DNA from: Streptomyces sp. GC420
GTDB taxonomy: Bacteria; Actinomycetota; Actinomycetes; Streptomycetales; Streptomycetaceae
Reading direction: 5' to 3'
NCBI RefSeq assembly: GCF_009916105.1
Contig: NZ_JAAAXQ010000016.1
Coordinates: forward strand, 1 to 42,042
DNA length: 42,042 bases
A program made the translations under genes and the position numbers. A model generated the notes under the pieces. The model was given only the letters and a program-made list of their open reading frames with translations, did not search any database and was not told where the DNA came from. Shown one piece after another: positions 22,504 through 25,638 of the stretch (position 1 is its first letter; every line of letters begins with the position of its first letter).

Positions 22504-24036
22504 ATGGCTCATCTCCGCTCCAGACACCGGCGCGCCGCCCTCGCGGTGCCGCTCGGTCTGGCGCTGACCGCGTCACTCGGGTTCCTGCCGAGTGCCGCGT
22601 CCGCCGCCACGCAGGACACCCCTGCCGCGGTGACCACGGACGGCCCCAACCTCAGCTACGTGGTGAACACCAAGGCCGACCGGCGCACCATCGCCTCGGT
22701 CAAGAAGTCCATAGCCAAGGCCGGCGGCACCGTCGTCACCACGCACGAGAAGATCGGCGTCATCGTCGTCCACTCGACGAACCCCGGCTTCGCGCAGCAG
22801 ATCCGCCAGGTGAAGGGCGTGCAGACCGCGGGCGCGACCCGCACCGCCCCGCTCCAGGCCGCCGGCACGACGGAGGTCGGCACGCCCGACTACGTCTCGG
22901 CCGCCGAGGCCGCTGCCGCTGCCGAGGACGCCGCGGAGGGCGCCGAGCCGCTCGAGGCCGACCAGTGGGACCTGCGGGCGATCGGCGCCGACAAGGCCGC
23001 CGGGATCAACCCGGGCAGCAAGAAGGTCACCGTCGCCGTGATCGACACCGGCGTCGACGACACCCACCCGGACATCGCGCCCAACTTCTCCGCGAGCCAG
23101 TCCGCGAACTGCGTGGGCGGCGTCGCCGACACCAGCGAGGGCGCCTGGCGTCCGTACACGAGCGACGACTACCACGGCACGCATGTCGCGGGTGAGATCG
23201 CCGCCGCGCGCAACGGCGTCGGCGTGGCCGGTGTGGCGCCGGGCGTGCAGGTCGCCTCCATCAAGGTGAGCGAGCCGGACACCAGCCTCTTCTTCCCCGA
23301 GGCCGTCGTCTGCGCCTTCGTCTTCGCCGCCGACCACGGCATCGAGATCACCAACAACAGCTACTACATCGACCCGTGGCTGTACAACTGCCTGGACGAC
23401 CCGGACCAGCGGGCCATCGTCGACGCGGTCAACCGGGCGTCGCTGTACGCCCAGAAGAAGGGCACGCTGCACCTGGCGTCGGCCGGCAACTCCAACGACG
23501 ACCTGGCGTCCGACGCGATCGTGGACGACAGCAGCCCGGACGACACCACTCCGGTGGAGCGCACCATCGACCCGTCCAAGTGCTGGGACATCCCGACCCA
23601 GCTGCCGGGCGTCGTCACGGTCACCGCGACCGGTGTGCAGAACCTCAAGTCGTACTACTCCAGCTACGGCCTCGGTGTCGCCGACATCGCCGCGCCCGGC
23701 GGAGACAAGTACCAGATTCCGGACACCCCGTCGAAGAACGGGCGGATTCTGTCCACCATGCCGAACAACGGCTACGCGTACCTGCAGGGCACCTCGATGG
23801 CCAGCCCGCACGCCGCAGGTGTCGCCGCGCTGCTGAAGTCCGTCCACCCGAAGGCGAGCCCGCGCCAGCTGCAGGCCATGCTCAAGGCGCAGGCGGACAA
23901 CCCGGGCTGCCCGACCGGTCTTTACGACCCCGACGGCAACGGTGTCGCCGACTCCACCTGTGAGGGCGGCGAGTCGTACAACGGCTTCTACGGCCACGGC
24001 ATCGTCGACGCACTCGACGCCGTGACGGAGGACTGA
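22504..24036 (+). CDS. Secreted S8 (subtilisin-family) serine protease
   Basis: A 510-aa extracellular subtilase. The signal peptide is about 1-34 (basic start RSRHRRAAL, hydrophobic core, cleavage near ASAA). An inhibitor-I9-like propeptide (about 48-120, LSYVVNTKADRRTIASVKKSI...GVIVVHSTNPGFAQQIR...TRTAPL) folds and then inhibits the protease until cleaved. The catalytic domain has D181 (VAVIDTGVDDTHPDI), H224 (YHGTHVAGEIAA), oxyanion Asn in LASAGNSNDD and S431 (GTSMASPHAAGVAALL). It ends HGIVDALDAVTED with no C-terminal anchor. ATG 22504 has GGAG five bases upstream. A perfect terminator hairpin follows, then a decayed copy of the same gene. Confidence 0.95.
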   Translation: MAHLRSRHRRAALAVPLGLALTASLGFLPSAASAATQDTPAAVTTDGPNLSYVVNTKADRRTIASVKKSIAKAGGTVVTTHEKIGVIVVHSTNPGFAQQIRQVKGVQTAGATRTAPLQAAGTTEVGTPDYVSAAEAAAAAEDAAEGAEPLEADQWDLRAIGADKAAGINPGSKKVTVAVIDTGVDDTHPDIAPNFSASQSANCVGGVADTSEGAWRPYTSDDYHGTHVAGEIAAARNGVGVAGVAPGVQVASIKVSEPDTSLFFPEAVVCAFVFAADHGIEITNNSYYIDPWLYNCLDDPDQRAIVDAVNRASLYAQKKGTLHLASAGNSNDDLASDAIVDDSSPDDTTPVERTIDPSKCWDIPTQLPGVVTVTATGVQNLKSYYSSYGLGVADIAAPGGDKYQIPDTPSKNGRILSTMPNNGYAYLQGTSMASPHAAGVAALLKSVHPKASPRQLQAMLKAQADNPGCPTGLYDPDGNGVADSTCEGGESYNGFYGHGIVDALDAVTED

Positions 24037-24061
24037 GCCGACCGCTCAACCGCTGTGACCA

Positions 24062-24091
24062 CGCCGGGCCGGGGACTTCCCCGGCCCGGCG
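24062..24091 (+). terminator. Protease terminator hairpin
   Basis: CGCCGGGCCGGGG (24062-24074), loop ACTT, CCCCGGCCCGGCG (24079-24091): a perfect 13-bp stem 26 bp after the protease stop. Confidence 0.85.
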
Positions 24092-24208
24092 CCTGGCGTT
24101 CACGCCCCGGCACGCAGCCGCAGCCGCACCGGTACGGCACCGCCCAGGTACCGGGCAGCCGCACCCGCACAACCGGTTCCGGCACCACGGGCACCGGGAT
24201 GGAGAACC

Positions 24209-24811
24209 GATGACCTGAGCGCCTCGCACGGTCCCGTCCCGCCGCGTCCTCGCCGTGCCCGCGGGCACGGCCCTCGCCTCCGCCCTCGCGCTGATGCCCG
24301 GCACGGCGGACGCGCGCCGGGCCGGCGGCGCGGCGGCGGCTCCCGCGGCGGCGGACACGGACTCCCCCACACTCAGCCACGTCGTCAACGTGCTTCCGGG
24401 AAGCGGCGATCCGGTATGCGTCCAGAGGGCCGTCGCCAGGGCGGGCGGCGCCGTCGTCCACGCGTACGACCGGACCGGCGTCATCGTCGTGCACTCCGCG
24501 AACCCGGACTTCGCCCGTATCGTCCGCACCGTGCGCGGCGTCACTTCCGCGGGCGTCACCAGGAACGCCCCGCTGTGACACGACGGACGGCGCCTGGCGT
24601 CCCGGCGCGAAATCACTCCGGTGGAACGGGGCACCGCACTCCGACGCCGTATCCGGCGTTCCGGATCGCACGACCACCGGAGCCCGAACAGCCCGGCACA
24701 CCGCAAGCCCGCCGGCCGGCCATCACACGGCGAGCTCACCCACCCGACCTCGCGCCGCTCCCCTGCATGGGCGTGGCCGACGCGCCGGACGCGGTGACGA
24801 AGACGGAGTGA
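24209..24811 (+). pseudogene. Decayed tandem copy of the S8 protease gene
   Basis: A ribosome site and start like the intact gene (TGGAG, five bases, ATG at 24209) are followed by a stop at the third codon (ATG ACC TGA). The same frame then encodes a signal-peptide-like run and a propeptide clearly related to the intact protease: LSHVVNVLPGSGDPVCVQRAVARAGG, then GVIVVHSANPDFARIVR, then TRNAPL, TGA. After that only scraps of the catalytic domain remain in shifting frames: DTTDGAWRP at about 24577 (intact gene DTSEGAWRP), ITPVERGT at 24612 (intact TPVERT) and a C terminus ADAPDAVTKTE ending at 24811 (intact VDALDAVTED). The Asp, His and Ser motifs are all gone. A 107-aa propeptide could still be made from GTG 24255. 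Confidence 0.85.
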
Positions 24812-24933
24812 AGTGACGCCGGCGGCTGCGCACCGGGCGGCGCCCCGCCGCGGCCGTCGCGGCCGGGCCGTTCCGCCTACCCGGCGCTCTCCCGGCGTTT
24901 TCCCGGCGTTTTCCCGGCGGGGCGGCCCCTCGC

Positions 24934-25638
24934 TCAGACCGCGGTACGGGCCTCCCCGCGCGCCGTCCCTGCAGCGGCCCGGCGCTCCGGCGCCACCGCC
25001 CGGAGGATCCCCTTCGTCAGCAGGAACTGGGCGGCGAGATAGGTGCCCATGACCCACAGGTCCGCGAAGGGCGGCTGCGGCCACTGGGCCACACCGGTCG
25101 CGATGAGGGTGTCGGAGAGCAGGAACAGCGCCCCGCCCACGCCCGCGTGCAGGCCGAACCGGCCGGCGCGGAACGCCATGGCGGTGAGGAGCAGGCTGTA
25201 CGCGGCGACGGGTGCCCGCATGCCGGCGGGCAGATCGTTCCACAGCAGGGCGAGGGTCACCGCGAGCGCGACCGCGTAGCCGCCGCCGAGCAGGACCGGC
25301 GTCCGGCCCTCGCCGCGGCGGCCGTGCCGGGCGGACAGCACCAGGTAGCAGACGTGTCCCGCCGCGAAGGATCCCATTCCGGCGAGGAAGGCCGCCTCGG
25401 CGTCGAAGAGCAGCAGCACGTCGCCGCCCCAGCCGCACAGCAGCGCCGCGAGCAGCAGCCGGGGCGCGCCGCGGCCGGCCGCGTACGCCAGCAGCAGCGG
25501 CATGAGGAGGGGTTTTGCGATCCGGTGCCCGGTCGACACGTCCGCGACGAGGGAGAGCAGGTCCGCGGCGACCGCGAGGACGAAGGCGGAGAGGAAGAGG
25601 CGGGTGATCCGCTCGCGGCTGATCCCGGCGCGCGTCAC
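24934..25638 (-). CDS. YhhN/TMEM86-family lysoplasmalogenase-like protein
   Basis: A 234-aa membrane protein of the YhhN family, which includes animal TMEM86 lysoplasmalogenases that cleave the vinyl-ether bond of lysoplasmalogens. About eight hydrophobic segments are seen. Family blocks are KPLLMPLLLAYA (N-terminal K-P-x-x-M motif), ALLCGWGGDVLLLF (conserved G-D), FAAGHVCYLVL and FLLSDTLIATG (conserved S-D). The GTG start at 25638 overlaps the stop of the upstream desaturase-type gene (GTGA), so both are made from one message. Bacterial members with shown lysoplasmalogenase activity are few, so the enzyme activity here is inference from family and neighbour. Confidence 0.85.
   Translation of the reverse strand: MTRAGISRERITRLFLSAFVLAVAADLLSLVADVSTGHRIAKPLLMPLLLAYAAGRGAPRLLLAALLCGWGGDVLLLFDAEAAFLAGMGSFAAGHVCYLVLSARHGRRGEGRTPVLLGGGYAVALAVTLALLWNDLPAGMRAPVAAYSLLLTAMAFRAGRFGLHAGVGGALFLLSDTLIATGVAQWPQPPFADLWVMGTYLAAQFLLTKGILRAVAPERRAAAGTARGEARTAV

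Follow-up and report, generated by a model that had tools for sequence, protein, structure and literature searches.

Positions 24210–24811 of the window (the whole stretch of 42,042 nucleotides that was analysed, from Streptomyces sp. GC420) are almost certainly the pseudogene left of the second, type-B member of a tandem A-B pair of secreted subtilases. Homology, the order of the parts, the lesions that disable the gene, and intact orthologues that other genomes have at this place are all seen directly. The feature is ordinary. It carries little weight alone, beyond being a clear case of gene death in a Streptomyces tandem secreted-protease pair. The genome is an 8.59-Mb draft in 854 contigs. 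The features of the locus are as follows.

22504–24036, plus strand: type-A gene, intact, for a secreted S8 subtilase of 510 aa; Pfam Peptidase_S8 at residues 173–480, E 5.1e-51.
24063–24090, plus strand: strong G+C hairpin without a T run, between the A gene and the B remnant; from folding.
24200–24218, plus strand: TGGAG, dead start ATG and codon-3 TGA; from the sequence, with the ATG aligned to the ATG of intact B genes.
24240–24575, plus strand: decayed type-B gene, signal and propeptide part; from tblastn to A, B-gene alignments and a tree.
24255–24578, plus strand: open frame of 107 aa, GTG to TGA; the modelled order is beta-alpha-beta-beta-alpha-beta.
24577–24603, plus strand: catalytic-domain scrap DTTDGAWRP, in a frame other than that of the propeptide; from a type-B pattern match.
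24612–24763, plus strand: dispersed-repeat fragment holding 'ITPVERGT', not protease; from matches to the repeat reference and its copies.
24770–24811, plus strand: C-terminal remnant GVADAPDAVTKTE (itself 24770–24808) and stop, in a third frame; from the type-B end pattern.

The original prediction described an ATG after TGGAG with a stop at codon 3. These elements are present, with TGGAG at 24200–24204 and TGA at 24216–24218, and the ATG occupies 24210–24212 rather than starting at 24209. In alignments this dead ATG is homologous to the start of intact B genes. A signal and propeptide were said to be kept, and the region is there, although the signal is intact solely when read from the dead ATG. 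Alignment of 22504–24036 with 24209–24811 revealed a homologous propeptide; 24240–24575, in the frame of the dead ATG, is 46% identical to the neighbouring A protein (tblastn, E 7e-29). The best alignments of the remnant with ten B genes gave 55–62.5% identity in seven and 42–49% in the other three, whose alignments extend into the flanks.

The first deletion follows ...RNAPL and removed about 90 codons (~270 bp; 89–93 codons in the four B genes compared), with a frameshift that leads to the TGA at 24576–24578. The second follows DGAWRP and removed about 280 codons (~840 bp), in whose place the repeat fragment now lies. If the Asp, His and Ser positions are assigned from subtilase motifs, the first deletion takes the rest of the pro-region and the Asp part, and the second takes the His and Ser parts. 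The proposed loss of the catalytic core is correct: the remnant has no S8 catalytic domain, since alignments to intact B genes show that the regions holding Asp, His and Ser are missing, and Pfam S8 has no match in the 107-aa ORF. Because of the deletions and frame changes, the B gene is disabled whatever the status of the codon-3 stop. The gene would have been disabled by this stop, by the ~270-bp loss with its frameshift and by the ~840-bp loss; the 134–152-bp repeat fragment and the second deletion may well belong together. The remnant is most likely without a product, which would leave the A copy as the only one still working.

Three scraps in the original order were thought to be remains of the protease, and two of them are. 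DTTDGAWRP corresponds to a 26-base type-B pattern with 3 of 26 bases mismatched, and none was expected in shuffled sequences; at three or fewer mismatches, the pattern matches this site and the intact A gene alone in the window. The C-terminal tail at 24770–24799 has 28 of the 30 bases of a type-B pattern, the sole match in the window, again with none expected. Each lies outside the frame of the propeptide. On these pattern matches, both scraps are true protease DNA. The third, 'ITPVERGT', was rejected as a protease scrap. Its likeness to the A gene is 18 of 21 bases (E 0.054), against E 3.8e-26 for the match of the 134 bases around it to the dispersed repeat. The lesson is that in G+C-rich DNA short in-frame scraps may be foreign repeats.

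A protein search with the propeptide covered 199 genomes of the genus, and 190 of them gave a match to one type or the other. Genes with more than 65% identity to the A protein of the window were labelled A, and those with less than 65% were labelled B. Among 50 intact genes labelled B, drawn from the fetched loci, 32 have a type-A gene directly upstream, within about 1.5 kb. A scan of genome contigs returned one locus, in Streptomyces lycii (NZ_WHPN01000144.1, L040), where A is followed by B with the same flanking genes as in the window; by our own reading of the sequences, these neighbours are transporter-like, DUF485-like and desaturase-like. The B gene of S. lycii is of full length, whereas that of the window is reduced to the signal and propeptide part and two scraps. 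An intact second protease gene is thus found at the same place, and with the clustering of the remnant in the tree described below, such counterparts bear out the proposal that a tandem paralogue, once of full length, has suffered large internal deletions. Six other genomes were checked downstream of A: five have no B remnant in the 1.5 to 4.2 kb covered, and the sixth (G002) has one 21-residue match, E 0.004. In two genomes, G136 and G118, this place is taken by one gene alone, of type B. Since full pairs, A without a B remnant and single B genes all occur, the A-B pair varies among genomes by gain or loss; loss of B is certain only in this window. A search of a plasmid collection with 24037–24940 gave no match. 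Elsewhere, an A-type protease gene of nearly whole length with two frame changes was seen at L169 (G119:C210:14000–19500), which is either a young pseudogene or a product of draft-assembly errors.

A propeptide tree was built from 63 rows, consisting of 61 intact proteins (≥495 aa, from 64 different intact rows) and two rows from the window, over 120 columns. The remnant falls inside B (99/96), within a set of eight (97/88), the columns being few and long rows being placed with less certainty, as the tree program warns. Its end branch, at 0.58, exceeds every other in B; the tree-wide median for end branches is 0.14. One protein labelled B (L022) groups with A in the tree and is still counted among the 50 B rows. 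At three positions where all 50 B rows agree, the remnant has a different residue; when intact B rows were left out one at a time, departures at such invariant places averaged 0.14, with a maximum of 2. The mean pN against B rows is 0.278, slightly above that of the highest intact row (0.268). The pN/pS of the remnant is 0.63, and the intact rows range from 0.53 to 0.66 among the ten listed, with a median of 0.56. The value lies within the intact range because these propeptides evolve fast, and relaxed selection is consequently not shown by it.

The lesions could instead be artefacts of assembly or sequencing, with the B gene intact in the strain. The many contigs of the draft and the presence of a repeat fragment inside the gene lend themselves to this explanation, which is nevertheless extremely improbable. 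The B tail is found past the repeat in the correct order, the propeptide and tail diverge from their relatives as an old relic would, the lesions are of three kinds, and the desaturase-like gene comes next, as it does in S. lycii.

Another explanation would give the remnant a role: it would still yield a free-standing propeptide able to bind, in trans, the A protease encoded next to it, either to inhibit it or to help it fold. Free propeptides can inhibit subtilases. The 107-aa ORF from GTG 24255, as first described, is indeed open and ends at the TGA already mentioned. Its model, built from four sequences only, has the order beta-alpha-beta-beta-alpha-beta with a core pLDDT of 70–81 and a mean of 62.6. 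A Foldseek search with the model placed subtilisin propeptides among the top matches, with a probability of 1.00, though the best E was 0.0076 and none was ≤0.001; acylphosphatase and other ferredoxin-like folds were close behind in the list. The subtilisin propeptides of Protein Data Bank entries 3whi, 3vv2 and 3cnq have the same strand and helix order as that predicted for the ORF. They are, however, parts of full protease genes, as the 107-aa ORF is not, and the E-values for the fold are weak. A propeptide-like fold is accordingly a prediction with weak statistics. Comparison of the ORF with solved propeptides gave no sequence match, and Pfam I9 had no match in it at E ≤ 1. As I9 equally fails to match the intact A protein, this result carries little information. 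The predicted structure of the whole A protease was set aside (pLDDT 36).

Against such a product, there is no purine-rich site before GTG 24255, and this start falls after the charged SRR, so that the charged beginning of the signal lies upstream and is left out. The three changed invariant residues also count against it, as does the strong hairpin that separates the remnant from the A gene (24040–24110 folds at -42.7 kcal/mol, z -3.97). Among the 150 matches listed in the propeptide protein search, the only open frames below 400 aa are this remnant (119) and one in G119 (183), which belongs to a nearly whole A-type gene with frame changes; no other stand-alone propeptide was found among these matches. 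The frame has a GC3 of 0.933, like intact genes (mean 0.945). In simulations of random change without indels it was still open in 59% of cases after 50 changes and in 38% after 90, and the open frame is therefore weak evidence for function. A function of the ORF in trans is possible but unlikely, and a stand-alone propeptide that binds the A protease is very improbable. Equally hard to credit is the fuller proposal that the relic is a secreted propeptide tuning the adjacent A protease, a deletion having made a protease gene into an inhibitor gene. Gene death is the preferred reading.

The dead B gene also drew attention to a family of structured dispersed repeats, worth separate study. The fragment in the window is 134–152 bp long (24612–24745, or to 24763) and about 80% identical to copies elsewhere. 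It is 81% identical to positions 196–331 of a reference copy of 367 bases (L091:1786–2152), and 78–85% identical to 14 copies. At least 29 matches to the reference are present in this genome, a lower bound from the 40 of 76 candidates that were scored; they include full-length and partial copies, some confined to positions 2–217. A search with the pseudogene DNA also matched places of the repeat in other genomes. The half that supplies most of the window fragment occurs at E ≤ 1e-10 in at least 14 of 121 genomes, its own included, with six candidates scored per genome. A second fragment in the window, at 2523–2659 on the minus strand, is 77% identical to reference positions 230–366.

Full copies start with ACCGTTCC and end near CAACCCC; in 16 copies inspected by eye, neither terminal inverted repeats nor target duplications stood out clearly. 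Across 27 aligned copies, 67 pairs are predicted, of which six are changed on both sides. Three of these six change in 8 to 11 sequences, with a small total covariation term of -0.72. Rfam had no match at the gathering score in the window and four element loci. One candidate, scr5239 on the minus strand of the reference element (E 0.46), was taken as chance, and the three weak matches among seven loci all fall in L121, at sites beyond the homologous stretch. The two largest clusters of proteins encoded beside the repeat look like the element's own frames; beyond them, the search for recurrent families gave just clusters of two to three loci, most of which are a single place counted twice. A literature search at the level of abstracts, with subscription journals mostly outside it, found no description of the B pseudogene or of the dispersed repeat.

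At ten loci, DNA next to a TnpB-like gene, or to what is left of one, is 67–74% identical to reference positions 2–217 of the repeat. Three Streptomyces loci with TnpB-related genes (L161, L162 and L163) have such DNA beside the gene, at 67–71%. The repeat, unlike these elements, contains no gene, and nothing at the left ends of these three matched its other half significantly (best E 0.038). Part of the repeat is homologous to sequence that lies just past a TnpB-related gene, and a common left end was not found. The gene at L162 matches NF040570, the guided-TnpB model, at E 1.1e-12 and 48 bits, below the cut-off of 100, and TIGR01766 at 34.2 bits, above the cut-off of 32; that at L161 scores 39.4 and 27.8 bits, respectively, both below cut-off. 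Pfam PF07282 is below its cut-off in all three TnpB-like genes. This structured, non-coding repeat of about 370 bp looks like a non-autonomous mobile element, with an RNA-like end that it would have in common with a TnpB-type element. The TnpB-like genes of the three loci (for example L162:1005–2693, minus strand), whose family matches are weak to moderate, are followed by a conserved stretch of 200–250 bp ending in GGAACGGT, possibly a guide-RNA-like region. Similar DNA is present at several places per genome, including that of Streptomyces sp. GC420 itself (L166, L167).
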